From the NCBI GenBank assembly GCA_019192455.1, contig JAHCML010000003.1, forward strand, positions 995,731 to 1,059,730: a DNA stretch of 64,000 bases, written 5' to 3'. The number at the start of each line of letters is the position of its first letter. Position 1 is the stretch's first letter. The notes below the pieces were generated by a model that saw only the letters and a list, made by a program, of their open reading frames with translations, ran no database searches and was not told the origin of the DNA. Shown here piece after piece: positions 7,315 to 60,071 of the stretch. The DNA comes from Alphaproteobacteria bacterium SS10. Lineage in GTDB: Bacteria; Pseudomonadota; Alphaproteobacteria; TMED2. The translations under genes and the position numbers were made by a program.

Positions 7315-8124
7315 TTATTGGGCTTTCGGGCCCGGCCCTTCGGGCTTCATCGTGCCGATAACCGATGGGTTGAAGAACTTATCGGCTGCCTTGTTATTGC
7401 GCAGTCGTTCGCCCGTTTCCTCAACATAGAAGCCGCCGCCAAGGGTGCGCAGGATCGCATCCTGGGCTGCAGTGTCCCATTCATATGAGAGGCGGTGGCG
7501 ATAATCGCCTTTAACGCCCCGGATCACATCGACATAGGACATGCAGCCAGTTTTGTACTGGGGCAGGTCGCTGCCATCGGGTGCCGTTTCCAAGCCGGGC
7601 CTCAGAATAATATCGGGGCCGCCTGCCAGTGACAGGACCGGCGTCTCCATATCTGTATTGGCAAAATCATCGCCATTCACAGGTTCATGAACCACACCCA
7701 GAACAGGCTCCCCATCTAAGACCAGGGCGATATTCACGGTGTACCAATTCACACCGCGCTTGCCCTCGACGAAGTTCTTAGTGCCATCGATTGGGTCGGT
7801 GATGAAAAAATTGCCAGAGCTAGTGTCTGGCACATTGCCAGCCTCCACACTCTCTTCACCGACAAAGCCAGTATCGGCGGGGAGTATGTCCTTAAATTCT
7901 TCCATCACGGTCTCCAACCGCTCACGGATAAGCACCTCGGATGCCCTATCGGCAGAGGTCACGACCGAGCCGTCGGATTTTTCAAACACCTCAATCCCGG
8001 TGGCCTTCATCTGCTCAACTAATAGGCCTGCATCCCGGGCAACATCGCGCATGGCGCGTGACAAGGCTTGAAGGCGGGGTTTGGGCAGATTGGTGCTGTT
8101 CGCACGGCTCAAATCGTCCGGCAT
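7315..8124 (-). CDS. Inositol monophosphatase-superfamily phosphatase (CysQ/HisN-like)
   Basis: Magnesium-dependent phosphatase of the IMPase/FBPase superfamily, 269 residues. The metal-site motifs are intact: GEES (residues 89-92), DPIDGT (110-115) and EWDTAA (215-220). EWDTAA also occurs in the CysQ-like gene at 15147-15983, so 3'(2'),5'-bisphosphate nucleotidase activity is plausible. Inositol-phosphate or histidinol-phosphate activity cannot be excluded. The ribosome site AAGAAG lies just upstream of the chosen ATG. It is convergent with prfB (3-base gap) and divergent from the paralogue array. It differs from the 15147 copy by a longer N-terminus and an insertion around residues 150-190, so the two are distant paralogues rather than a recent duplication. 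Confidence 0.85.
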   Translation of the reverse strand: MPDDLSRANSTNLPKPRLQALSRAMRDVARDAGLLVEQMKATGIEVFEKSDGSVVTSADRASEVLIRERLETVMEEFKDILPADTGFVGEESVEAGNVPDTSSGNFFITDPIDGTKNFVEGKRGVNWYTVNIALVLDGEPVLGVVHEPVNGDDFANTDMETPVLSLAGGPDIILRPGLETAPDGSDLPQYKTGCMSYVDVIRGVKGDYRHRLSYEWDTAAQDAILRTLGGGFYVEETGERLRNNKAADKFFNPSVIGTMKPEGPGPKAQ

Positions 8125-8432
8125 TGGTGCTTCTTTCTCTTAAATCGAATGGTGCGATGCAGCAGAAATAGCAGGGTTTTTGCGCCAGAGCGACAGCAAA
8201 CACTAGAAATAGGTCAACAGTGCTGCCCAAAAAACCGTCAAATTTTAAGAAAAATCGATATTGCTAAAAAAATGCGCATTTAGGGCTGGTCTATTTCACG
8301 GAAGAGTCATAAACCGGCCAACGTTAAGCATGGGTGCCATGCATATTTCGCCGGTTGCTCTCCCCAAAAGCTCCGCAACCGGAAGGCAGATCAGACGGGA
8401 AAACCGTTCTGAGAAATAAGGAGTAACTTCCA
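8125..8432. other. Divergent intergenic region upstream of the paralogue array
   Basis: 308 bases between the phosphatase gene (minus) and the first array gene (plus). The part near 8220-8285 is AT-rich. It holds the element at 8294-8325 described separately and a good ribosome site (AAGGAG near 8420) for the gene at 8433. I see no coding potential. Confidence 0.6.
8294..8325 (+). promoter_or_regulatory. Candidate promoter/operator shared with the gene at 12692
   Basis: The 24 bases at 8294-8317 match 12579-12602 at 19 positions, with common blocks TTTCA, AAGA, TCATA and ACCGG. They lie 116 and 90 bases before the first and fifth array genes. At 8300-8325 there is also GGAAG, 17 bases, then CGTT, which is close to the GGAAC-N16/17-CGTT promoter of the alphaproteobacterial general stress sigma factor EcfG. 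The second site lacks the GGAA block. Promoter activity is inference. Confidence 0.4.
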
Positions 8433-9344
8433 ATGGTCGCCAATACCCCCGCGGCTCGCAGTGTCGAGCCGACCGCAGAACGTCGTCCCGATCCCCGCCA
8501 ACGCCGCCGCCTTTCAGGTCCTGCTAGGGCCCTGATGGCTAGCCTTGCAACAGCCCCTGTTGCAGTTGCTGGCGCTGCCAGTGCCCATGAAGCCGCGTTC
8601 CAGGAGTTCACCTCCGGTAACCGTGCTGCGGTTCACCTAGTGCAAGCTGGTCCAAATGATGCAGCCCCACAGGCCACCGCACCAGCGCGTGCCGCTGATC
8701 GTGGTTTTGCCTGCATCACCGTTGCCAGTGAAACTGCCCCACGCGGCGCCATTCTCTTCGCAGCCCCTCAGGGCGCGCAGATGGCACTTGTTCCAACTGA
8801 AGCCCCCGGTACCCATCCCACCGGGCCAGCGCAACTTGATTGCGGCCCAATCGAGGCTTTCGAAGCGCAAGTTCGTACCAACACCGAAGCATTTGTTGCT
8901 GATGTTGCTGCATTTATCCGCGAAACTTCTGACCAGCTGAACATGCCTCAGCTGCAGCAGCTCGCAGATCACCTTGAGAGCGATGGCTTCACCGCCAGTC
9001 TTCCAAGCGCGCATCAGAATACGGCAACCGCCTTCAACCTGACCATGGATGCTGCCCGCGGCGTTTATGGTGAAGACGTTGATAGCCACATCTCGCCAGA
9101 GCGGACCGGCGCCTTGATCCGTGAGTATCAGAAAGTTGGGGTCGAAAATCAGATCCTGGCTGGTGCTTCCGGCCTGGTGAACCGTGTTCAGCGTCAGCTC
9201 GATGCTGCTAGCGCCCCAGCGCCGCAGGGTGATGCCCCAGTTGAGGGTCAAGATATCAACTTCGATCCTGGCTCTATTCAAGAGTGGCGCGGTCGCAATG
9301 TCCGGCCCGTCAATGACGGCCCAGAACGCGGCATGAAGATCTAA
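8433..9344 (+). CDS. Array protein 1: exported, unknown family
   Basis: I do not recognise a described family. The protein has 303 residues. The N-terminus is basic (RQRRRL, residues 22-27) and is followed by an Ala-rich, weakly hydrophobic stretch ending GAASAHEAAF, which looks like a signal peptide cleaved near residue 51. The twin arginines plus weak hydrophobicity would suit a Tat signal, but the motif is not canonical. The conserved domain begins GFACITVASE (C94); the second conserved cysteine is C137, 43 residues later. A helical, Gln/Glu-rich region fills about 140-255. The C-terminus has INFDPGS where the other members have F-E-S-G-P-D. The ribosome site is AAGGAG. First of five paralogues on one strand. 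Confidence 0.75.
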   Translation: MVANTPAARSVEPTAERRPDPRQRRRLSGPARALMASLATAPVAVAGAASAHEAAFQEFTSGNRAAVHLVQAGPNDAAPQATAPARAADRGFACITVASETAPRGAILFAAPQGAQMALVPTEAPGTHPTGPAQLDCGPIEAFEAQVRTNTEAFVADVAAFIRETSDQLNMPQLQQLADHLESDGFTASLPSAHQNTATAFNLTMDAARGVYGEDVDSHISPERTGALIREYQKVGVENQILAGASGLVNRVQRQLDAASAPAPQGDAPVEGQDINFDPGSIQEWRGRNVRPVNDGPERGMKI

Positions 9345-9357
9345 GGCTGATCAAATC

Positions 9358-9395
9358 GTTGGCCCGGGGAGTTTGGGAAAGCTCACCGGGCCAAC
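9358..9395 (+). terminator. Strong hairpin between array genes 1 and 2
   Basis: A perfect 10-bp inverted repeat, GTTGGCCCGG (9358-9367) against CCGGGCCAAC (9386-9395). The 18-base loop can itself pair further (GAGTTT with AAA-G-CTC). No T-run follows, so it may be a partial terminator, an mRNA-stabilising stem that sets different expression of gene 1 and genes 2-4, or a Rho-dependent end. Confidence 0.5.
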
Positions 9396-9499
9396 CCATT
9401 AACAACAATCGATCGGGCCAGTTGGCCCAGGCAGTCTAAGCCCCCGGCTGCATGACCTTCGTCGAACCATTCTCACACGAGTAGAGAGGACGTATCGCC

Positions 9500-10432
9500 A
9501 TGGTTAGCAAACTTGCACCTGCTCATCAGGACGCAACTGGGACGCGTGCCGCCAATTCAAATAGCCGCCGTGCCCGCCGATTGGTTCAGGCATTAGCGGC
9601 AGGTCTAGCCGCAAGCCCGGCCGCTGCATCGCCCGCTGATGTGGTCGAAGCGTTAAATGCCCCCCAGGCGCGGGTGATTCAGGTTCAATCGACTGACGGC
9701 GCAACACCCCCAGCAGCCACTGTACCGGGCGAAGCACAAACACCAGGGCAGGCGGGTATTGCCTGCATCAGCATGACCAGCCCCAGCCATGCGATTGGTG
9801 CCTTTGTCGGTGTGACCCGCGACAGCATCACGGTTCGTCCGATGATCACCGCTGGTCCCGGTGTAGCACCAGAGGCGCCAGAGGGACTTAACTGCACAAG
9901 CTTTGAAGAATTCGAAACCGCAGCCCATGGGCGGCTGACCTCCTTCGTTAATGATACCGCCGACTTCATTGAAGGGATTGAGCGGCAGCTTGGTCTGCCA
10001 AGTGGGCCGACCGCGCCGATGCGTGACCCAAACTTTGTTGCCGATCCTGAGAATGCCTACGTCCAAACAACGGCCGTGTTTCGGTATGTGCTGAGCTATG
10101 TGATGCAGCGGGTTGGTGAGCAGAATTTCAATTCTGTGGTCAGCCGGAGCGCCCATGAGGCCCTTGCTGCTCGCCATGTAGAAACTGGCAACGAGCTGCT
10201 GATGCTACAGCAGCTTCGTGGCGCCATGCCCCAGCTTCAGGAACAGCTGGATAGTGGCACCCTGGACGCCAATGACGGGCGCCGACCGGTCATCATCCCC
10301 GATGCCAACGCTATTCCAATTCGGTTCGAGTCCGGTCCCGACAGCGCCCGGGTGAAAGCCGCCCGTGATGCATCGCTTCGGGTTGAGGCACCGCGCCCAG
10401 AGCGCGACCGCACCGCCGTTTTTCAAATTTAG
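9500..10432 (+). CDS. Array protein 2: exported, unknown family
   Basis: 310 residues, unrecognised family, paralogous to its neighbours. It opens MVSKLAP; the array proteins at 8433, 10475 and 11512 also begin M-V-S/A. A basic stretch with SRRARRL (22-28) precedes an Ala-rich segment ending near residue 45 (PAAASPAD), a probable signal peptide. The two conserved cysteines are C89 (GIACISM) and C132 (LNCTSFEEFE), again 43 apart. A mostly helical middle follows. The C-terminal signature IPIRFESGPDS lies near residues 277-287, followed by a charged tail. The ribosome site is AGAGAGGA. It follows the hairpin at 9358-9395 by about 100 bases and precedes gene 3 by 42, so genes 2-4 are probably co-transcribed. 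Confidence 0.75.
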   Translation: MVSKLAPAHQDATGTRAANSNSRRARRLVQALAAGLAASPAAASPADVVEALNAPQARVIQVQSTDGATPPAATVPGEAQTPGQAGIACISMTSPSHAIGAFVGVTRDSITVRPMITAGPGVAPEAPEGLNCTSFEEFETAAHGRLTSFVNDTADFIEGIERQLGLPSGPTAPMRDPNFVADPENAYVQTTAVFRYVLSYVMQRVGEQNFNSVVSRSAHEALAARHVETGNELLMLQQLRGAMPQLQEQLDSGTLDANDGRRPVIIPDANAIPIRFESGPDSARVKAARDASLRVEAPRPERDRTAVFQI

Positions 10433-10474
10433 TCAGTCAAATCATTCAGTCGATTAGCCCTCAAGGATTTCATG

Positions 10475-11467
10475 ATGGTCAGCAACACCCCAGCCCACGC
10501 AAAGATCGAACCGCTGCCGGGGGGGTCTGACGATCAGCGCAGCCGACGTATGCGCCAAGGCGCACAGGGAATCATGGCCGCGGTGGCGGCAGCACCAGTC
10601 GGCGGTGCCGTATCGGCAGAAGAAGCAGCATTCGAGATTTTCACTGGTCCGCAAGCTACCGCGGCCCAGTTTGAGCCAATCCTGGTTCAGGCCCAAACCA
10701 CGGGGCCGGGTGCGGTGGCCGCGGCCGAGGAGCCTGAAGAGGTTGAACGTCCGTCCGTTGGTGCAACCGGATCGGCCTATATTACCATCGCCCGCAACAA
10801 CACGGGCAGCATGTCGAATGATGAAGAGCTGGTTGGCGCAGTTATGGTGCTGCTGCCCGATGATGCCCATGCCGTTGCCGTCGATGTGCCGCGTCCTGGC
10901 GCTCTGCCAGAATGCCCAGATGATGCCCAGTGCTTCACCCCGCTTGGATACGTTCAACACGTTCAAGCCCGGGTCGCTGAGCTGGGGCAAATGACGGCCG
11001 CGTTCATGCGCCCGATCGAGGCAGCACTCGGCCAGACTGAGGGGCCGTCTGCACTGCTTGAGCGGGATAAGTTCGGTGAGAACTCCATCGCTGATTTTGG
11101 GACCGCGCGACGTTGGTTTGAACAGACCATGATCAATGCCGAGCGCGGCCTGGAAGCGGAGGCGTTTGCAGCGTCGGTGGATGCCTCACAGCTTCAAGCT
11201 ATTCAGCAGATGCAGGAAGAGATTGGTGTTGAGCTACAGATGCTGGGCGTCCTGCGCGGCGGCATTCACCAACTTCAGTTCCAGCTGGACGCCGGGATGC
11301 TGGTCCCGGAAGGCCGCATGCCAGCGCCTCAGCCTGAGGGCGATCCAATCCGCCTTGAATCCGGTCCAGAGAGTGAGCATGCGACGCAGGTTCGAGAGGC
11401 ATCACTGCGGGAAGAGCCAGCTGCCCCAGCCCCGGTTGCAACCCACCGACGGACAATGGCCGCGTAA
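10475..11467 (+). CDS. Array protein 3: exported, unknown family, first Cys lost
   Basis: 330 residues, unrecognised family, closest to array protein 4. I chose ATG 10475 over the ATG at 10472 because the context AGGATTTCAT(G)ATGGT is nearly identical to that of gene 4 and gives the shared MVS start. The basic RSRRMRQ is followed by an Ala-rich segment ending VSAEEAAFEIF, a probable signal peptide (cleavage near 48). The first conserved cysteine of the family is replaced by Tyr102 (SAYITIA). The second is kept as C153, and an extra C147 lies six residues before it, so any disulfide must be rewired. The tail carries DPIRLESGPES, then a charged region. The nearby frame at 10605-10994 is an overlap artefact. 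Confidence 0.75.
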   Translation: MVSNTPAHAKIEPLPGGSDDQRSRRMRQGAQGIMAAVAAAPVGGAVSAEEAAFEIFTGPQATAAQFEPILVQAQTTGPGAVAAAEEPEEVERPSVGATGSAYITIARNNTGSMSNDEELVGAVMVLLPDDAHAVAVDVPRPGALPECPDDAQCFTPLGYVQHVQARVAELGQMTAAFMRPIEAALGQTEGPSALLERDKFGENSIADFGTARRWFEQTMINAERGLEAEAFAASVDASQLQAIQQMQEEIGVELQMLGVLRGGIHQLQFQLDAGMLVPEGRMPAPQPEGDPIRLESGPESEHATQVREASLREEPAAPAPVATHRRTMAA

Positions 11468-11511
11468 CTCTTAGCCTTTCAATGGGCCTGAACGCTCAAG
11501 AGGATTTCATT

Positions 11512-12495
11512 ATGGTTTCTACCCATTCCCCAGCCGCCCATGACGACGCAAAACAGCGCCGGATGAGCCAAGGCGCCCGCGCAATCATGGCGGCCGTCGC
11601 GGCAATGCCAGCCGCTGGTTCCGTCAGCGCGCAAGAGGCTGCGTTTCAGGTATTCACGGGCCCACAAACCCATATTGCGCAGGCTGATGGTGCGACGGGT
11701 TCAACTGGTCCTGATGCTGTCGTGCCAGTTGTGGATGCCAGCGGTGCAGAAGCCGAGGCAGTAACCAGCATACCAACACCGGGTGAACAACGCGGCGTCT
11801 GCATTACCGTGCCCAGCAGCGAAAACGCCGTTGGCGGCATCATGACCGTCACCCTGCGTCAGAGCTTTACCCGCGTCGTCGAAACCTCAGCCCCGGGTGT
11901 GTTGCCTGAGGGGAATGACGATGAGAATTGCATGACCGCGGATGAGTTCCGCATGGCGGTTGATGAGCGGACCAACCAGTTTGTTCAAGACACCACTGAT
12001 TTTCTGATCGATGTCACGAAAAAGGTTGGTTGGGACAGCTCCAGCCTCGAGCCCATGAAGACGCCTGCCTTTATGGAGCAGCAGGGCCTTGTGGGCGCAC
12101 ATGAATTCGTTGGTCAGGTGTTTAACCGCGTCATGGGTGCGGTTCAGCGAAGCGCCGGCCAGGTCATGTTCTCCTTCATCGTTGATGATCAAGAGAGCGA
12201 TGCGCTGATCCAGCGCTATCTGAACCTCGATGCAGAGTTGAAGGTCCTCGGCACAATGGAAGCGGCGCTGCCACGGGTTCAACAGGGGCTAGATGATGGC
12301 AGTATGGTCCCTCTGTTCACCGGCCCGGGAGTTGAGGTTCCAAACCCAGGTGATCGGGTACGCTTCGAATCTGGCCCAGATGCACGTCAGCCGGTGGCAG
12401 AGACCGCTGCTGCCAACGCTGCGGTCGATGACCGGCGTCAGCCCGCCGCGGCCTTGGATGAGCGCCGACCAGCCTGGCCAGGGGCACGGGTTTAA
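11512..12495 (+). CDS. Array protein 4: exported, unknown family
   Basis: 327 residues, unrecognised family. ATG 11512 is preferred over 11482 because a GAGGA ribosome site lies just before it and the context repeats that of gene 3. The signal region (QRRMSQ, then Ala-rich to VSAQEAAFQVF) matches gene 3 at about 70 percent of positions, indicating recent duplication. Cysteines C97 (RGVCITV) and C140 (ENCMTADEF) are 43 apart. A helical region follows, then the signature VRFESGPDA near residue 285 and a Pro/Arg-rich tail. The gap to gene 3 is 44 bases. A 196-base gap separates it from gene 5, which has its own copy of the upstream element. Confidence 0.75.
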   Translation: MVSTHSPAAHDDAKQRRMSQGARAIMAAVAAMPAAGSVSAQEAAFQVFTGPQTHIAQADGATGSTGPDAVVPVVDASGAEAEAVTSIPTPGEQRGVCITVPSSENAVGGIMTVTLRQSFTRVVETSAPGVLPEGNDDENCMTADEFRMAVDERTNQFVQDTTDFLIDVTKKVGWDSSSLEPMKTPAFMEQQGLVGAHEFVGQVFNRVMGAVQRSAGQVMFSFIVDDQESDALIQRYLNLDAELKVLGTMEAALPRVQQGLDDGSMVPLFTGPGVEVPNPGDRVRFESGPDARQPVAETAAANAAVDDRRQPAAALDERRPAWPGARV

Positions 12496-12578
12496 TCCGA
12501 AAGTCCCCCTGAAATTATCTAACGCAAAGGCGTAACGATCTTGCGAATGCCCAGGGCATTGGGGTTTCGGATCGGCGC

Positions 12579-12602
12579 TTTCATAAAAGATTCATAGACC
12601 GG
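12579..12602 (+). promoter_or_regulatory. Second copy of the array upstream element
   Basis: 24 bases sharing 19 with 8294-8317 (TTTCA, AAGA, TCATA, ACCGG in the same spacing), 90 bases before the start chosen for the fifth array gene. A short palindrome (CGAGC/GCTCG) follows at about 12608-12621. It may be the promoter or operator of a separate transcript for gene 5. Confidence 0.35.
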
Positions 12603-12691
12603 ATTGAGCGAGCAAGCGCTCGTATCAAGAATATCTTCCACAGTCATTGAGCATGGCTGCTGAGGAGCGTGAGCGGAAAAGGACCGTCGCC

Positions 12692-14266
12692 ATGGCTGAC
12701 AATAACAAAGCAACCCAAGCACCAGCCCAAACCGGACAGAGCCGCTTTAGTCGCCTTCGCCAGAGTGCACTGTTAGCTTCCGCAATGGCAGTGCCGCTGC
12801 CTGCGGTCGGGCAAGAGGCTGTGCTTAATGAAGTCCGCCAACCGGTCGCCCCGGTTGTGACCCTGGCCCAGGCAACCATTCCGCGCGCAGATTTGGACAT
12901 TGGCTCGGCTGGTAAGGCCTGCGTGACCTATGCCTCACCAGAGGTGCCACGTGGCGCGCTGATCATGTTCGACGTGAATAGCGGTCCCAATCGTCCTGAA
13001 ATCGTTCCAATGATGCTGACCGAGATCGGTCTGCTGCCATCCATGGGGCAGGAGCGGTATTGCGACACGATCCAGAACTTCCGCGCCGATGCTGAGCAAC
13101 GCTCAATCGAGCTAGGCCGCGATATCGCCCAGCTGGTTCGGCAAGCTGCCGAGGCGACTGGCAAGCCAGAACTCGCCCAAGGTGTTGAGATCCTTGAGGA
13201 TCAAGACTTTGCCAGAAACTTGTTCCCCCTGACCAATACGGCGGAATCCATGTTCCTGCGCGCAGCACGGGCCCATCCGGCGATTTGGCAGGATCCAGTC
13301 GGTCAGACGATCAAGGATCGCGGCATCGCCAGCAAGAAGGCTGCCTTCATTATTGAGAGCACCGAAAACCTGCTGCCTGTTCTGGAAGCGCATTTTGTCG
13401 ACCCAGAGGCCAATCCATTCCCAGGCCTGCCAGCACCACAACCGCAGGGCATCCCGATCAATTTCAACATGGATGTTGATGATAAGCCTGGTGTATGGGC
13501 CGCCCAGAACGCCGTGTTTGATGCCAGTGTTCAGGCACCTCTAACCTTGGCGCAAGTGACAGAGCCGGCGCCAAAGACCCCGGGTGAGCGCGGCTATGTT
13601 TGCGCAACCTATGCATCCAGTATTCATCCGGTTGGCGGCATCATCGTTGCCAATGTCGGTATGAGTGCACATGGCCTTCGCAATGTGGAGAGCCCAGGCC
13701 AGCACCCCGTTACTGAAGGTGACGTGCTAGCGGGCGAACTTGAATGTGAAACCATTGATGATTTCCTAGCTGGTGTTGAAGCGCGCGCGGAACAGTTTGG
13801 CCGCGACATGGCGTCGTTAGCCCGACGGGTTGCTGAGGGTGTTGGGCAGCCCGACGTTGCCGCTGGTGTTGAGCGTTTGGAAGCTGAAGGCTTTGGATCT
13901 GATCTCTCAGAGGCTAGTCGCCTAACCCGTGAGTACTTTGATCGTATCGTTGCGGCAGCTGAGGGCGTTGATCCGTCTCGCTTGCAGGAAATTGTTCCGC
14001 CAGAAGAGATGCAGGCGATCATGCAGCGCGGTCAGCAGGGCGATACAGAGTTGAACCTGGCCCGCAATGCGCGTGCCCAGCTTGCCAATTTGGAAGCACA
14101 GTTTGGACCACGTGTTCAGGGCGTGCCAGCGGGTGTGCCAATTCGTTGGCAGTCAGGCCCGGATGCCGTGATTGAGCGTGAGGCACGGGTTGAGCCGCAG
14201 GGGGTGGACCGGACTACCACCGCATCCAACGATCAAGGCTACCGCCCGCGCAGCCTGACCGCTTAA
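12692..14266 (+). CDS. Array protein 5: exported, two copies of the array domain
   Basis: 524 residues, unrecognised family. ATG 12692 is chosen because AAAAGGA lies eight bases upstream and the protein then begins with a normal signal peptide (basic RFSRLRQ, hydrophobic core, AVGQEA near 41). Starts at 12647 (TTG) or 12653 would add a charged extension. The array domain occurs twice. Copy A has C77 (KACVTYASPEVPRGA) and C124, with INFN near 256. Copy B has C304 (YVCATYASSIHPVGG) and C352, ending IRWQSGPDA near 485-495. The cysteine spacings are 47 and 48. The A-B junction (QAPLTLAQVTEPAP, about 281-294) echoes the post-signal region TLAQATIP (about 57-64), consistent with internal duplication. 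Confidence 0.78.
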   Translation: MADNNKATQAPAQTGQSRFSRLRQSALLASAMAVPLPAVGQEAVLNEVRQPVAPVVTLAQATIPRADLDIGSAGKACVTYASPEVPRGALIMFDVNSGPNRPEIVPMMLTEIGLLPSMGQERYCDTIQNFRADAEQRSIELGRDIAQLVRQAAEATGKPELAQGVEILEDQDFARNLFPLTNTAESMFLRAARAHPAIWQDPVGQTIKDRGIASKKAAFIIESTENLLPVLEAHFVDPEANPFPGLPAPQPQGIPINFNMDVDDKPGVWAAQNAVFDASVQAPLTLAQVTEPAPKTPGERGYVCATYASSIHPVGGIIVANVGMSAHGLRNVESPGQHPVTEGDVLAGELECETIDDFLAGVEARAEQFGRDMASLARRVAEGVGQPDVAAGVERLEAEGFGSDLSEASRLTREYFDRIVAAAEGVDPSRLQEIVPPEEMQAIMQRGQQGDTELNLARNARAQLANLEAQFGPRVQGVPAGVPIRWQSGPDAVIEREARVEPQGVDRTTTASNDQGYRPRSLTA

Positions 14267-14274
14267 GCTTGAGG

Positions 14275-15147
14275 TTAGGCGACATTTGTCTTCTTCGGCT
14301 CGTCGGCCAGGGGCTCGTACATTTCAGGGGCCATGCCAGCCTTTAACCGCGAGAGCGTATTGAATGGCCGCTTGATCTGGCCTCGGAAATACTTCCGCAC
14401 CAGGGTTTGCCAGGTAGGGATCGTCTCGTCCCCCCGTTGTGCGCAGACGTAATCAAACCAACGCCAGCCAATCGCCACATGATTGATCTCATCATCATGG
14501 ACGATCTGCAGCAGCCGCGCGCTATCAGCGTCATCATGGCGGTGCAGGCTATCGATCATGCTTGGCGTGACGTCTAGGCCGCGTGCCTCCAGCACCATTG
14601 GCACGATGGCGAGCCGTGCGGCGATATCGTGGGCCGTATCCATGCTGCTTTCCCACAAGCCGTCATGGGCAGGCAAATCACCGTAAGCAGTTCCCAGATC
14701 CTTTAACCTGGTTTGCAGTAGGCGGTGGTGCCGCGCTTCATCCGCCGCGACCATCACCCAATCATTAAAGAAGGCGCGGGTGAGGGGGAGTTCATCGGCG
14801 GCCTCGCCCCGCTCTTGGCCTGGTACATCGCGGTGCGGGGAAAAACGGGCGATTACATCCCACGCAAGGTCGATGGCGTTCAGCTCAATATGGGCGAGGG
14901 CGTGAAGCAGAGCGGCGCGGCCAGCGACGCTGTTCGCCTTACTACGCTTTGGCATCGCTGATGGGGCGCGCAGCTCTGGTTTAACTAGCCGCGCTGGCCG
15001 ATCCGGTGGCGCGGCCTCTCCAATCAGGGTAATCTCACCATCCCGCCAGGCGGTGGCGGCTGCCTGGCTAATCGCGATCTTGTCCATTGGATCGGCTGCG
15101 TTAAGCGCCGCCATGGCCGCATCGCAAAGTGTTTCGTAGGCTGCCAT
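14275..15147 (-). CDS. DUF455 ferritin-like protein
   Basis: Ferritin-like four-helix protein of the DUF455 family, 290 residues; the biochemical role is not established. The di-iron-type ligands are visible: H86-E88 (AHIELNA), E137 and H140 (DEARHH), E187 (LEARG), and E220 and H223 (DDEINH). The start ATG at 15147 overlaps the TGA of the upstream CysQ gene in a TGATG arrangement, so the two are translationally coupled. An upstream in-frame ATG (15186) would lie inside cysQ and is less likely. It is convergent with array gene 5, with an 8-base gap. Confidence 0.88.
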   Translation of the reverse strand: MAAYETLCDAAMAALNAADPMDKIAISQAAATAWRDGEITLIGEAAPPDRPARLVKPELRAPSAMPKRSKANSVAGRAALLHALAHIELNAIDLAWDVIARFSPHRDVPGQERGEAADELPLTRAFFNDWVMVAADEARHHRLLQTRLKDLGTAYGDLPAHDGLWESSMDTAHDIAARLAIVPMVLEARGLDVTPSMIDSLHRHDDADSARLLQIVHDDEINHVAIGWRWFDYVCAQRGDETIPTWQTLVRKYFRGQIKRPFNTLSRLKAGMAPEMYEPLADEPKKTNVA

Positions 15148-15983
15148 CAGCCGCCTAGCCATTCGGCTGGGCCAACACCGCCCCAAGCGATGAAGCCATC
15201 GTTCAGGAACTTGCGATCCGCCTTGGCATAGGGGAATAGGCCGCCATCGGTGCTGGTTACGACACCGCCAGCGCCCTCAAGGATCGCTTGACCAGCAGCG
15301 GTATCCCATTCGCAGGTATTGCCGAAGCGTGGATAGATATCGGCGCGCCCGGCGGCCACTTCACAGAATTTCAGCGACGAACTGCGGGCGACAAAGCTGC
15401 CAACCTCACGGCCATTCATGAACTTCTCCAGCGCTTCTGGATTCCCGTGATTTCGACTGCCCAGGATGCGGAGTTTGCCGAGATCTGGCGTCACCACCTC
15501 AATCGGTGTGTCAGCGCCATTGCCCCGACGCTCAAACGCCGTACCAACACCGCAGGCTCCATATTCTTCATCAATCGCCGGGGCATAAATGACGCCCATC
15601 ACCGGACGGCCATCAAGCACAAGGGCGATGTTCACGGTGAACTCACCCAGCCCTTTGATGAAATCCTTGGTGCCATCCAGCGGGTCAACCAGCCAGAACT
15701 GGCCGCCACTGATGTCTGGCAGGCTGCCACCATCGCTCGCTTCCTCGCCAATCACTGGCACATCCGGCGTCAGTTGGCGAAGCAGGGGGGTGATCAGCGC
15801 TTCGGCTTCCCGATCCGCAATGGTGACCGGACTACCATCACCCTTAGCGATCACCTCATCCATGCCGTCCGGTTGGTAATATTCCATGATCACCTCGCCC
15901 GCCTGTTTGGCGATCTCCCGGATTGGGGAGAGCATGTCATCAAGCGGGGGAAGGCCAATCGGCGCGATGGGTTGGGTTGTCAT
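15147..15983 (-). CDS. cysQ: 3'(2'),5'-bisphosphate nucleotidase
   Basis: Phosphatase that removes the 3' phosphate of PAP or PAPS, a by-product of sulfate assimilation; IMPase superfamily, 278 residues, usual CysQ length. The metal-binding motifs are GEEAS (79-83), DPLDGT (100-105, followed by KDF as in CysQ) and EWDTAA (225-230). It is the leading gene of a two-gene unit with the DUF455 gene, and the second IMPase-family gene within 9 kb. Confidence 0.92.
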   Translation of the reverse strand: MTTQPIAPIGLPPLDDMLSPIREIAKQAGEVIMEYYQPDGMDEVIAKGDGSPVTIADREAEALITPLLRQLTPDVPVIGEEASDGGSLPDISGGQFWLVDPLDGTKDFIKGLGEFTVNIALVLDGRPVMGVIYAPAIDEEYGACGVGTAFERRGNGADTPIEVVTPDLGKLRILGSRNHGNPEALEKFMNGREVGSFVARSSSLKFCEVAAGRADIYPRFGNTCEWDTAAGQAILEGAGGVVTSTDGGLFPYAKADRKFLNDGFIAWGGVGPAEWLGG

Positions 15984-20433: not shown

Positions 20434-23091
20434 CTATTGTGCGGCCAGGTTCTTTGACCGAAAGTCGAGTATCAACTCATTAATCCCATCCACCAGCTCC
20501 TCCATGCCGTAGGGCTTGGTGATGACCGGTACGTCTGGAAACTCGTCATTAAACGCATCGGCGGAACCATATCCGGTTGCGAGAACGAAGGGGATATCCG
20601 CCGCTATCAACGCATCGGAAATCGGGGTGCTGATCTCGCCATCCAGGTTGATATCCAGGATGCATAGGGTGGGCGCCTCCTTCTCCACGAGGCGAATGGC
20701 ATCCTTACAATTCGCGGCCAAGAAGACTTGTTGAGCGCCCAGCTTTTGGAGGTGCTTCTCCGTTCCCATCGCGATCAACATCGTGTCTTCGACCAGTAGA
20801 ACACGCTCAAACAGCTTCTGGCGTTCCTGTTTGATGTCCGTGCTTTTGCTTTGTGATGTCTTAGCTTCTGCCTTGCCTGTCTGCTCGCTGCCGCCGTTAA
20901 CCTCGATATAGTCGGCGGGGATAAGGAACCTGGCTCTAACGCCGGATGGCGGGAACTGAATCTCAGCCTCACCTTTTAATTCAAAGGGGATCGAGCGTTC
21001 GATGATGGTGGTTCCAAAGCTTAGCAGCTCAGGCGCCTTGACCTTTGGTCCGCCGCTTTCCCGCCAATTCAGGCGCAGGGCGCCATTGGGCTCAACCTCG
21101 CTTCTGATTAGGACATGCCCACGCTTGTCACAGAGCGCGCCATACTTACTGGCATTGGTGATTAGCTCATGCAGAACCAGGGCGATGGTGGTGAAGGCCT
21201 TAGGGCTGATCATCACATCAACGCCCTCGATGCTTACCCGGTCGGCTTTGGTGCCGAGATAGGCACGGGTTTCAACCTGTATCAGCTCCTGTAGGCTTGC
21301 CGCATTCCAGTTCCGCTTGGTGATCAAGTCATGGGCATGGGCCAGCGCATGGATCCGGCCGCCGACAATCTCGGTGAAGTCATGGATGCTGTCTGCCCCG
21401 GTTTGGCTTTGTGAGATCAGATTGCGGATCAAGTTTAGGATGTTGCGAACCCGGTGGTTAAGTTCGGCGATTAATACCTCTTGCTGCGCCTGTGCCTTCT
21501 GCCGCTCGGCCAGGTTTACATCCGACATGCGCAAGACGATCTCTATCCACGTGGCCCTAAGGCCCGCAGCCAAGCCTTCCTCCGCCCGTGACCAAGGTTT
21601 GGAATACAGGCGTCTGGTCTCCTGCCAGGCGGCAAAACTTGCGCGGGGTGTTAAGGCAGAGGTACCGGGATTTGATTGAACTGGCTTCGATGGATTGCCG
21701 CCCCAGTAGAGGTCTGTAACTTCTTCCCGCCGGCAGAACACCAGATAGTCGCGTGGCTGCCTTGAGACCGGGATGGCGACAATCCCTGCAACTCTATCGG
21801 CATAGGCAGCCGCACTGGCGTGAAGGCCGGATAGGTTATTGGTGACAAAGTGCCGTCCGTTGGCTGCTTGGTTGAGGAGTGGTAGAAGATCATCGAACTC
21901 TGCCTCCGTAAGCACTGAGCCTGTGGCTTTGAACTTGCCATTGGCCCACATCATGGCCCCATCAAACTCGATAGCATCCTGGCTGGCTGAGACTAGCGTT
22001 TCAAAGTGATCGGCGATATCTGAGTCTTGGCTGAACTGGATGGCGACACTGTCATGCACCAGTTTGGCTTTGTCTCGCGCCTCTTGATCTTCCTTGGTCT
22101 CCAGCTCATCGATGGCAAGGGCGAAGAAATGGCCTACCACCTCAGCCGCGGCGCGCAGTTTGGGGTGGGGTAGGTGCGGTGAGTTGTGGTGACAGGCGAT
22201 TAGACCCCATAGGCGTCCCTGGACGATGATTGAAATCGACATCGAGGCGGCGACGCCCATGTTCTGCAGATAGATTAGGTGAATTGGGGAGACTGATCGA
22301 ACACTGGATAGACTTAAGTCGAGTATCGATCCCTCTACGCTTCTCTGCGGCACAATTGGATGCCCAGCGTCATGGACATCTGCAATGACCCGAATAAGGC
22401 TGCGCTTATAGAGTTCTCGCGCCTGCTTTGGGATATCAGAGGCCGGGTAGCGCAGACCCAGATATGGCTCCATATCCGGTTGCTTAACCTCGGCAATTAC
22501 TTGCCCATCATCACCCTCTACGAACTTATAGATCATCACCCGATCAAAGCTGGTCAGCCTCTGAACCAGGTTTGCTGTGTTGTTGGCTCTCTGCACCAAA
22601 TCTGGCTCACGGCGAAGGTCGTCCAAACTGGTTTGAAGCATCAGTAGAGAGTCGAACGCCTCTGCGTCCGGGGATGGATCGGGCTCAATATCGATTAAGA
22701 TATGCTCGCCGCTGCGATGCAGGCTTAAGGCGAATGGATAGGGGGCGGTTTGGGCCAGCTTGATGCCAAACAGACGCTCAATTTGATCTGGCTCCGTTAG
22801 GCGGCTGGCAGCGGATTTTAGCTGGGCCATAACCTCTGCTGAAAACAGCTCCTGAAGCGGTGAGCCGAGCTTGGGGTGGTCCTCTAAGTCAATGATATCA
22901 AGAAGATTTTCTGAGTGGTGGGTAATGCGCCAATCTATTGAGGCGGCGATAACTGCGCCGAAGCTTTGCGCCAAACCCAGCTTGTGTATCGGCTCCCGGT
23001 CGCAGGTGGTTAAAGCCTCATTCAGGCCAGCAGCGCTAGGATCGAATAGTTGTGTCACGCAGCAACACTCCCCGGATAAACGGTCGGACAC
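20434..23091 (-). CDS. Bacteriophytochrome, HWE histidine kinase with C-terminal receiver
   Basis: Red/far-red light sensor, 885 residues. The order is PAS (about 25-120), GAF (about 135-315), PHY (about 325-515), HWE-type kinase (about 530-710), a Ser/Lys/Gln linker, then a receiver (about 755-880). The biliverdin-attaching cysteine is present in the N-terminal extension (C30 in TTCDREPIH). The GAF motif PASDIP and the PHY tongue motif PRASF followed by WQE are intact, so a functional chromophore pocket is likely. The kinase has the HRVRN H-box near 540 and the HELITNASKYGAL N-box. The receiver keeps the acidic pair VEDT, the phospho-Asp (CILDINLDG), Thr (ATGYG) and Lys (TKPYG). No heme oxygenase or partner regulator lies nearby, so the phosphorelay output is unknown. 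Confidence 0.95.
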   Translation of the reverse strand: MSDRLSGECCCVTQLFDPSAAGLNEALTTCDREPIHKLGLAQSFGAVIAASIDWRITHHSENLLDIIDLEDHPKLGSPLQELFSAEVMAQLKSAASRLTEPDQIERLFGIKLAQTAPYPFALSLHRSGEHILIDIEPDPSPDAEAFDSLLMLQTSLDDLRREPDLVQRANNTANLVQRLTSFDRVMIYKFVEGDDGQVIAEVKQPDMEPYLGLRYPASDIPKQARELYKRSLIRVIADVHDAGHPIVPQRSVEGSILDLSLSSVRSVSPIHLIYLQNMGVAASMSISIIVQGRLWGLIACHHNSPHLPHPKLRAAAEVVGHFFALAIDELETKEDQEARDKAKLVHDSVAIQFSQDSDIADHFETLVSASQDAIEFDGAMMWANGKFKATGSVLTEAEFDDLLPLLNQAANGRHFVTNNLSGLHASAAAYADRVAGIVAIPVSRQPRDYLVFCRREEVTDLYWGGNPSKPVQSNPGTSALTPRASFAAWQETRRLYSKPWSRAEEGLAAGLRATWIEIVLRMSDVNLAERQKAQAQQEVLIAELNHRVRNILNLIRNLISQSQTGADSIHDFTEIVGGRIHALAHAHDLITKRNWNAASLQELIQVETRAYLGTKADRVSIEGVDVMISPKAFTTIALVLHELITNASKYGALCDKRGHVLIRSEVEPNGALRLNWRESGGPKVKAPELLSFGTTIIERSIPFELKGEAEIQFPPSGVRARFLIPADYIEVNGGSEQTGKAEAKTSQSKSTDIKQERQKLFERVLLVEDTMLIAMGTEKHLQKLGAQQVFLAANCKDAIRLVEKEAPTLCILDINLDGEISTPISDALIAADIPFVLATGYGSADAFNDEFPDVPVITKPYGMEELVDGINELILDFRSKNLAAQ

Positions 23092-30978: not shown

Positions 30979-31527
30979 TCAGGGATCAATCTCGGTAATT
31001 TTTGAGCCCTGAATGCTGCCGCCACCCATCAGGCCGCTCTGTCCAAAGAAGACGGGTGCGATGTCGCCTTGCAGGTTGTTGGTGCCAAGTGACTTGGACC
31101 AACCCTCATCACCACCGACGAGGGTAGGGCCAACGCCAAGTTCCCAACCGCTGCTGTCGCGCAGGTATTGCAGCCCGTTGTCGGTTAGGAAGAACATTGC
31201 ATAGCTAAAGGTCTGACCGCCAAGCTGTAGGCCAATTGAAGCTGAAGCGATGTTGTAAAACTCGGTTGGTTTGCCATCGACAATCAGCGCGCCTTCGCCA
31301 AACTGTCCACCAATGATGACGCCGCCCTTAACGATCTCTGGGAAGACCAGGATCGCAACCGACTTCTCACCGAGCGCTTTGGTGTCTGGCTCGCTTTGAT
31401 ACAGCTCCTCCAGCGCGGCGAGGGCCTTATCACCCAGTTCTTTGGCTGGATCAGCGAAGGCGGATAAAGGGCTAGTCGTGGCGAGGATAGCGGCCATCAG
31501 GGTGGCCAGGAGGAAACGTGGGATCAT
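30979..31527 (-). CDS. SYLF (YSC84-like) exported protein
   Basis: 182 residues. A signal peptide (MIPRFLLATLMAAILATTSP to about residue 25, SAFADP) is followed by an SYLF domain (about 40-180), a lipid-binding fold also found in eukaryotic YSC84/SH3YL1. The segment ASASIGLQLGGQTFSYAMFF and the LGTNNLQGDIAPVFF region are typical. Function in bacteria is not settled. It is divergent from the small lipoprotein gene at 31702 and has its own terminator. Confidence 0.87.
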   Translation of the reverse strand: MIPRFLLATLMAAILATTSPLSAFADPAKELGDKALAALEELYQSEPDTKALGEKSVAILVFPEIVKGGVIIGGQFGEGALIVDGKPTEFYNIASASIGLQLGGQTFSYAMFFLTDNGLQYLRDSSGWELGVGPTLVGGDEGWSKSLGTNNLQGDIAPVFFGQSGLMGGGSIQGSKITEIDP

Positions 31528-33135: not shown

Positions 33136-33322
33136 GTAACCGGCATGCATATGCGGATTACTTGGGCGTGGGTGTAAGTCGCCGGATGCACGGTGTCAAG
33201 CCGTGGCCTATCCCCCAACTCTTAGCAGTAAAGCATCAGGAATACCGCCGGATTGGCTTGAGTATCGCGGCGGGTCCCGATACATCAGGGCCACCTCGAA
33301 CAATCATAGGTTGAGCGCCGCA

Positions 33323-34342
33323 ATGGATTTGCTGGCTGATTTTTTCCTGCGCTTCCTGACCCAACTGCAGAGCCCGACATTGGGCTTTCTGATTGGGGGC
33401 ATTCTGCTGGGTGCTTCCGGCAGTAAGCTGCAGGTGCCTGACGCAATCTATCAGTTTGCTGTCTTTATGCTGCTGATGCGGGTTGGTCTGAACGGCGGCA
33501 TGGAAATCCGTGAGGCCGATTTAAGCACCATGGCGCTACCGGCCTTCATGGCGGTGCTGGTCGGCTTAATCATCGTCTTCCTCGGCCGCTTTACGCTCGC
33601 AAGACTGCCTGGCGTGAAGGTTGAGGATGGCATTGCCACCGCCGGGTTGTTTGGCGCCGTCTCTGCGTCAACCCTCGCTGCCGCAATGGTGGTGATGGAG
33701 CAGGAGAGCCTGACCTATGAAGCTTGGGCGCCGGCGCTCTATCCGTTCATGGATATTCCCGCGCTGATCCTCGCGATTGTCCTGGCCAAGATCTATCTCG
33801 CCAAGGGTGAAGCGGGCGAAGACGGTGAGGGTGAGGGCAAGCGGGTTGCCGTTTGGCCAATCATCCGCGACAGCCTGCGTGGCTCTGCCCTGTCGGCGTT
33901 GATCCTGGGCCTGATCCTGGGGCTGGTAACAAACCCAGAGCGGGTGTTCGACAGCTTCTATGACCCGCTATTCCGCGGCCTGCTCTCAATCCTGATGCTG
34001 ATTATGGGCATGGAGGCCTGGACCCGCCTGGCTGAACTGCGCCGGGTTGCCCATTGGTACGCGGTTTACGCTGCCCTGGCGCCGATTGTTCACGGCCTGA
34101 TTGCCTTTGGCCTCGGCTACATCGCCCATGTCGCTGTTGGGTTTAGCCCAGGCGGTGTGGTGATCCTGGCCGTATTGGCGGCCTCAAGTTCGGATATTTC
34201 GGGCCCGCCGACGCTGCGTGGCGCGATCCCGACGGCCAACCCGTCATCCTATATCGGTGCGTCTACTAGTGTTGGTACGCCGGTGGCCGTGGCGATTTGC
34301 ATCCCACTCTTCATCGCGATGGCTGATGCCATCTTTAAGTAG
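33323..34342 (+). CDS. Sodium-dependent bicarbonate transporter family (SbtA-like)
   Basis: 339 residues, about ten membrane helices, SbtA family, which in cyanobacteria takes up bicarbonate with sodium. The inverted-repeat halves show LMRVGLNGGMEIRE (about 49-62) and ISGPPTLRGAIPTANPSSYI (about 292-311). An acidic cytoplasmic loop, GEAGEDGEGEGKR (about 170-182), lies between the halves. The ATG at 33323 is chosen because the 40 residues encoded upstream in frame are hydrophilic and unlike the family. It faces an SbtB/PII-like gene on the opposite strand with an 11-base gap between stops. Bicarbonate as substrate is inference from the family. Confidence 0.85.
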   Translation: MDLLADFFLRFLTQLQSPTLGFLIGGILLGASGSKLQVPDAIYQFAVFMLLMRVGLNGGMEIREADLSTMALPAFMAVLVGLIIVFLGRFTLARLPGVKVEDGIATAGLFGAVSASTLAAAMVVMEQESLTYEAWAPALYPFMDIPALILAIVLAKIYLAKGEAGEDGEGEGKRVAVWPIIRDSLRGSALSALILGLILGLVTNPERVFDSFYDPLFRGLLSILMLIMGMEAWTRLAELRRVAHWYAVYAALAPIVHGLIAFGLGYIAHVAVGFSPGGVVILAVLAASSSDISGPPTLRGAIPTANPSSYIGASTSVGTPVAVAICIPLFIAMADAIFK

Positions 34343-59042: not shown

Positions 59043-60071
59043 TTAGCTGACGCGGCGCGGTGGCGCGCTGAACAGTGGCACGCCTTGGGCCAATCGAGCG
59101 GCCTGCTGGTCCATCTCCGTCGACAGCATGTGGATCTTCTGCTCCCGGATATGGGAGCGGATGCCATCGCCACTTCGCCGTGGGTTGGTGAACAGCGTCT
59201 TCATCTGGGGGCCGGTTGCGCCAAGGGTCTGGTGAATGACGCAGGACAGGCCATCGCCCAGCAGTTGGGCAGCCCGATCACCAAGCGCTTGTGAGGAGAT
59301 CTGGATCATGCCGTGCAGTGTCTTCTCAACAGAGCCGGCATGGACGGTCGTAATGACCAAGTGGCCAGACGTGGCTGCCCGCAAAACCTGTGCGGCGGCA
59401 TCTGGTGACCGGATCTCACCCACCAGAATGTATTTGGGGTGCCAGCGCAGTGCGCTTTTCAGGGCGTCGGCCCAGCCATGCTCGTCATCAACCTCAGTCT
59501 GGAAGCAGTAGCCATTATCGCCATGCTTACCGTGGAGGTTGTATTCAGCCGGGTCTTCAACCGTGTAGGCGACCTTGCCGTATTGCTTGAGGTAGTGGCT
59601 CAACAGGCAGTTTGCGGTTGTTGTCTTACCGTGGCCGGTTGCACCAGCGATAAGGATCAGCCCATCTCTCGCGCCCATCTTCGAGAAGTAGGGGATCAGA
59701 TTAGGATCAAACTTCAGCGATTCCATGCTGAGGTCGGAATCCGCGACCCGGCGCATGGCGGCCCATTGTTCACCATTCGCCATACGCCGACGGGCGACCC
59801 TTAGGCGCATTTCTTCAAAGGTTAGGCTGTAATCATCCTTGGTCGTTTCCCGCAGCATTTCGCGGAGGATCTCAACCTCCTCGCCAAAACACTCTGGCAC
59901 AGCCAAGTTTTCCAGGCGTCCATTAGCCGGATTGGTCATGTTTACCCGTGCCTCATCCTTTTGGTCGAGGCGGATATACATGTCGATGAACTGCAGTTCT
60001 TTCAGCAGCTGACCGCAGCGTTTCAGCTGCTGGTTCATGGCTTGCCGATCGAATTTGGCAATCTGGCTCAT
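59043..60071 (-). CDS. Orphan PilT/VirB11-superfamily ATPase (DotB-like)
   Basis: 342 residues, hexameric secretion-ATPase family. Walker A is GATGHGKT (143-150), Walker B ILVGEIR (215-221, family Asp replaced by Gly-Glu as in PilT/DotB), and the His box TTVHAGS (about 241-247). The N-terminal domain (about 1-120) lacks pilus-retraction landmarks and overall resembles DotB of type IVB secretion more than PilT. No other secretion or pilus gene is in the window. It sits between purQ and the DUF1476 gene. Confidence 0.82.
   Translation of the reverse strand: MSQIAKFDRQAMNQQLKRCGQLLKELQFIDMYIRLDQKDEARVNMTNPANGRLENLAVPECFGEEVEILREMLRETTKDDYSLTFEEMRLRVARRRMANGEQWAAMRRVADSDLSMESLKFDPNLIPYFSKMGARDGLILIAGATGHGKTTTANCLLSHYLKQYGKVAYTVEDPAEYNLHGKHGDNGYCFQTEVDDEHGWADALKSALRWHPKYILVGEIRSPDAAAQVLRAATSGHLVITTVHAGSVEKTLHGMIQISSQALGDRAAQLLGDGLSCVIHQTLGATGPQMKTLFTNPRRSGDGIRSHIREQKIHMLSTEMDQQAARLAQGVPLFSAPPRRVS

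Follow-up and report, generated by a model that had tools for sequence, protein, structure and literature searches.

Five genes on the forward strand of Alphaproteobacteria bacterium SS10 DNA (8433-14266) encode six copies of one homologous domain, the fifth gene carrying two fused copies, within the 64-kb stretch that was analysed (the window). Judged from its sequences, the family looks genuine and undescribed, with no detectable kin within the searches run. Our tentative interpretation is that the array is an old tandem family, confined to one lineage, whose exported products reside in the periplasm or envelope and have a putative binding or scaffold role.

Layout of the array and its neighborhood

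The genes and domain copies are as follows, with cysteines numbered by residue.

8125-8432 (no strand): intergenic region 5' of the array; sigma-70-like matches not above chance
8433-9344 (+): gene 1, 303 aa, one domain copy, core 8685-9284; C94 and C137
9500-10432 (+): gene 2, 310 aa, one domain copy, core 9737-10351; C89 and C132; PIRFESGPD at 10316-10342
10475-11467 (+): gene 3, 330 aa from the MVSN start, one domain copy, core 10751-11380; PIRLESGPE at 11345-11371
11512-12495 (+): gene 4, 327 aa from the MVST start, one domain copy, core 11773-12390; C97 and C140; RVRFESGPD at 12355-12381
12692-14266 (+): gene 5, 524 aa from the MADN start, two fused copies; C77/C124 and C304/C352
12890-13489 (+): gene 5 domain a, the most diverged copy; SGP motif lost
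13571-14173 (+): gene 5 domain b; PIRWQSGPD at 14138-14164

The starts given in the open reading frame list for gene 4 (11482) and gene 5 (12647) are probably too early, and 11512 and 12692 are the likely ones because of the MVS/MAD starts and the ribosome-site context common to the array. The intergenic gaps are 155, 42, 44, and 196 nt; such short gaps (42-196 nt) on a single strand fit an operon, and no promoter or terminator excess was seen at the array. Codon usage of the array genes is in line with that of the neighboring genes. The array products are lysine-poor, with K/(K+R) values of 0.07-0.20 compared with mostly 0.3-0.4 in the neighbors. On the 5' side lies an inositol-monophosphatase-family gene, downstream of PBP1A and of prfB, the latter named by sequence reading; on the 3' side (14275-15983, -) are a DUF455 gene and a second inositol-monophosphatase-family gene. 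The two members of this family that bracket the array lie at 7315-8124 (-) and 15147-15983 (-), and the product of the former matches just the N-terminal half of the inositol-monophosphatase Pfam profile. The PBP1A sequence does not place the organism, since many families are tied at 54-59% identity. All of these flanking genes are of the housekeeping kind, and no toxin, immunity, secretion, or defense partner adjoining the array was found in the Pfam, NCBIfam, and PADLOC scans or among the neighbors. The proposal of an undescribed system, made from the letters before any search, is therefore not sustained at this locus, where no functional partner is linked.

Homology and divergence of the six copies

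Profile HMMs built from five cores each recovered every sixth core with E values of 1.3e-18 to 4.3e-38, and with 2000 shuffled decoys in the same hmmsearch none was reported, the held-out copy being retrieved alone. This bears out the claim of the sequence-only reading that five same-strand genes hold six related domain copies. In pairwise blastp comparisons the strongest relationships were between genes 2 and 4 (E 3e-33), genes 3 and 4 (E 4e-26), and domains 5a and 5b (E 5e-18), and the weakest was between gene 4 and domain 5a (E 0.004). The only grouping resolved in the paralogue tree is that of 5a with 5b, itself a joining of long branches. Pairwise core identity among the copies is 18-31%, and the sequences therefore indicate duplications that are old or fast-evolving. 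Similarity at the DNA level is confined to genes 3 and 4, in the stretch that covers their starts and signal regions, where 70.3% identity extends over 111 nt (E 1.6e-9); the match of about 70% noted earlier in this region, together with the shared ribosome-site context, is thereby confirmed. Of the earlier view that the family diversifies by duplication, the single duplicated domain stands, but recent diversification does not, given the low core identity and the restriction of DNA similarity to one pair of N-termini.

The N-terminus of an exported protein is usually less conserved than its folded core. This pattern is reversed in genes 1, 3, and 4, where the N-terminal blocks are 51-62% identical compared with 24-26% for the cores, a hint that export or docking imposes a specific requirement. 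High N-terminal conservation is not seen in genes 2 and 5 (28-33% identity). Mismatches in the N-terminal block of genes 3 and 4 fall 14/16/32 at the first, second, and third codon positions. Because third positions predominate, the sequences indicate protein-level constraint on this N-terminus, not merely recent sequence exchange.

Searches for relatives

No match to the array was obtained in Pfam, NCBIfam, PHROGs, or PADLOC at the curated cut-off or E <= 0.001, nor among PDB sequences, where the best E value was 0.1, to designed helical proteins. The absence of any recognized family, claimed from the letters alone, thus holds in these libraries, and the Pfam match that had been named as the outcome that would overturn it did not occur. 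Profile searches of the SS10 genome itself returned exactly six domain copies, even at E 10, and those of 875 other genomes (58 and 385 of the class and 398 of the phylum, which overlap, and the orders of G107, G210, G334, and G208) returned no credible copy. These searches sample the class and do not exhaust it, and SS10 is the sole member of its order in the genome collection searched. A pattern scan of 85k genomes with gene 5 found no relatives, although the scan is insensitive and also missed relatives of DUF455; scans of viral contigs (IMG/VR) with gene 4 and gene 5 patterns, of low sensitivity, likewise found none, and tblastn at E 1 gave no match in plasmids (genes 1, 4, and 5) or phages (gene 5). 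The best reading is that the family is restricted to one deep alphaproteobacterial lineage within what was searched, and to that extent the lineage specificity proposed earlier is upheld.

Four weak profile matches were inspected and rejected, the genes concerned being named from sequence reading and not from a family scan. L008 is located at genes for pyruvate dehydrogenase, no open reading frame at L009 gives a convincing match, and the L010 match falls in the signal region of a CpaC/RcpA-like secretin. L060 (1540-2157, -; E 7e-5), found in one genome of the 875, corresponds to the C-terminal helices of a PhaR-like open reading frame and is best read as a chance similarity of amphipathic helices.

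N-termini and probable export

Each protein is composed of a signal-like N-terminus, an Ala/Pro-rich linker of 35-45 residues, a core of roughly 175 residues, and a tail, the linker and the tail both being modeled with low confidence. The N-termini run from a basic stretch through an Ala-rich, weakly hydrophobic stretch to an AxA-type site (a slash marks cleavage).

8433-8585 (+): signal-like N-terminus of gene 1, site ASA/HEA
9500-9637 (+): signal-like N-terminus of gene 2, cleavage site uncertain, partly judged by eye
10475-10618 (+): signal-like N-terminus of gene 3, site VSA/EEA
11512-11631 (+): signal-like N-terminus of gene 4, site VSA/QEA by analogy with genes 1 and 3; the first rule-permitted site is four residues earlier
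12692-12811 (+): signal-like N-terminus of gene 5, site AVG/QEA

A signal-peptide rule requiring a basic n-region, a hydrophobic h-region, and small residues at -3 and -1 was passed by all five array proteins, compared with 2 of the 37 other proteins of the window and 0.3-4.3% of shuffles; as the rule is ad hoc and was made after the sequences had been seen, this result is supporting, not independent, evidence for export. The h-regions are weak, with a best 15-residue Kyte-Doolittle mean of 1.46-1.80. The basic n-region, the weakly hydrophobic Ala-rich h-region, the AxA-type site, and the RR pair present in four of the five N-termini (gene 5 has none) resemble Tat and Sec signal peptides (PMC5539426), from which the array differs in the unusual conservation of the n-region and first mature residues between some paralogues. 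The context S-R-R-x-F-L-K that marks Tat signals (PMC5539426) is absent around the RR pairs in all of them, and these N-termini are thus not those of recognizable Tat substrates. Elsewhere in the SS10 genome no N-terminal signal of this kind was found above chance (best E 0.067, match inspected).

Every domain copy holds exactly two cysteines, and there are none elsewhere in the five proteins. Their positions are common to five of the six copies; gene 3 differs, with Tyr replacing the first conserved Cys (AYIT in the CIT block) and a Cys gained six residues ahead of the other conserved one, giving a local pair at C147 and C153 from the MVSN start (C148 and C154 in an alternative numbering). 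This pattern favors a disulfide and export. Taken together, the sequence features make it likely that the array proteins are exported, in agreement with the secreted or periplasmic location suggested before. The C-terminal motif R-[FLW]-[EQ]-SGP-[DE] is clear in four of the six copies (genes 2, 3, 4, and 5b); gene 1 and domain 5a carry degenerate forms. The motif lies outside the folded core, in the region modeled with low confidence. Of the features that the sequence-only reading had listed as shared, the starts, signal region, second cysteine, and helical Gln/Glu-rich part hold, but the CIT block does not extend to gene 3 and the SGP motif is not clear in every copy.

Predicted structure of the core

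AlphaFold2 was run on the six-row alignment, and the gene 4 and gene 5b cores were modeled; the two models were built from the same six sequences and are not fully independent. In the gene 4 model the folded core spans approximately residues 90-265, with 156 residues at pLDDT >= 90, and comprises strands 95-101, 107-114, and 118-124 and helices 143-172, 177-183, 185-223, and 226-262. The gene 5b core model (mean pLDDT 84.3, pTM 0.78) has strands 9-15, 21-28, and 32-38 and helices 62-91, 112-131, and 144-177. The order of elements is the same in both, a three-stranded β-meander followed by a long helix and further helices, so that among the two of six copies modeled the unrelated folds that had been named as counterevidence did not appear. 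Foldseek comparison of the core models with PDB and BFVD (viral) returned nothing at E <= 0.001; the structural check proposed earlier thus found no similar structure, and the core has a confidently predicted shape without a match in either collection. An RNase H/actin-like fold (Hsp70, RuvC, YeaZ), which shares a three-stranded meander and following helix, was rejected: TM-scores are about 0.1 (0.10-0.15), overlaps with YeaZ chains are short and local (approximately 30 residues, rmsd ~3 Å), and the array core has no further sheet and no nucleotide or metal motif. The only invariant core columns are G, G, P, C, F, and F, and no invariant polar or charged catalytic set is present in the core alignment of the six copies.

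Interpretation and alternatives

In the tentatively preferred reading, an Arg-rich signal peptide of low hydrophobicity (Sec, or Tat-like) would take the chains across the inner membrane, and the cysteine pair would form a disulfide between meander strand 1 and the beginning of helix 1. The linker, rich in Ala and Pro, may allow the core to extend away from its site and to serve, in the periplasm or at the envelope, as a module for ligand binding or scaffolding; through the SGP tail motif, members may dock to one another or to a partner common to all of them. After duplication the cores would have diverged to bind different partners, with the export N-terminus kept under constraint. The binding or scaffold role is speculative, as the default reading of a small, disulfide-tied helical domain with no recognized active site. 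A variant in which a new fold family self-assembles through the SGP motif, for example with the tail as an edge strand donated to the three-stranded sheet of a neighbor, and so builds a structure in the envelope or outside the cell that no other lineage than this order-level one has, is a long shot.

Extracellular effectors, adhesins, or toxins, with each diverged core acting on a different target or competitor, would also combine export features and conserved export N-termini with strongly diverged cores, and signal peptides occur in 23.7% of the 404,085 novel families (FESNov) of one catalogue (PMC10849945). This explanation is unlikely, since no toxin, immunity, pore-forming, protease, or nuclease family was matched, the locus lies amid housekeeping genes with no linked secretion system, and the C-terminal domains are not swapped as in polymorphic toxins; the toxin domain, immunity gene, and linked secretion system that define such arrays were not found at the locus. 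Cytoplasmic phasin-like proteins, whose basic, Ala-rich N-terminus would be an amphipathic anchor and whose helices would coat a granule or form a scaffold, are improbable. The amphipathic Gln/Glu-rich helices of the core are indeed like those of PhaR and phasins (PHB_acc, Phasin_2), as the chance-level match of L060 also reflects, but neither a Phasin nor a PHB_acc Pfam match was found, and the array differs in its β-meander, its AxA-type sites after a hydrophobic stretch, and its two cysteines per domain, which, with the replacement Cys of gene 3, argue for an oxidizing compartment.

A confident predicted fold with no known analogue could also belong to an enzyme or carrier of an unfamiliar kind exported to the periplasm; the lack of invariant polar or charged residues among the conserved columns argues against this, and we consider it quite improbable. 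Spurious open reading frames or a composition artifact might be suspected from overlapping long antisense frames and similar reverse-frame codon scores, but this is already contradicted by six-copy protein homology with little DNA similarity and by the third-position excess in genes 3 and 4, and can be practically dismissed.

Among known systems, the array comes close to FESNov-type families (PMC10849945), which resemble it in having no reference-library match, a restricted distribution, a signal-like N-terminus, and often an unmatched fold. FESNov families show conservation between several genomes from uncultivated taxa; in the array, conservation is seen only among the paralogues of a single genome, whose order is not otherwise sampled. 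Orphan exported families are common and the array alone is one of very many; the features worth pursuing are its conserved N-terminus and tail motif, and a six-copy, confidently predicted, unmatched domain is a useful target for fold discovery and for questions of orphan-family origin.

Other features of the window

The Rfam scan of the 64-kb window gave one tRNA only. A lone T2SSE/PilT-like ATPase gene lies by purL/purQ (59043-60071, -), with no other pilus or secretion genes among the neighbors scanned. A 182-aa protein with a signal-like N-terminus and no Pfam family is encoded near a CitMHS transporter and a CBS protein (30979-31527, -) and is Lys-rich to a degree unusual for the window (K 8, R 2). 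The window also contains a bacteriophytochrome with an HWE histidine kinase and a receiver domain (20434-23091, -) and a gene of the Sbt-type Na+-dependent bicarbonate transporter family (33203-34342, +).
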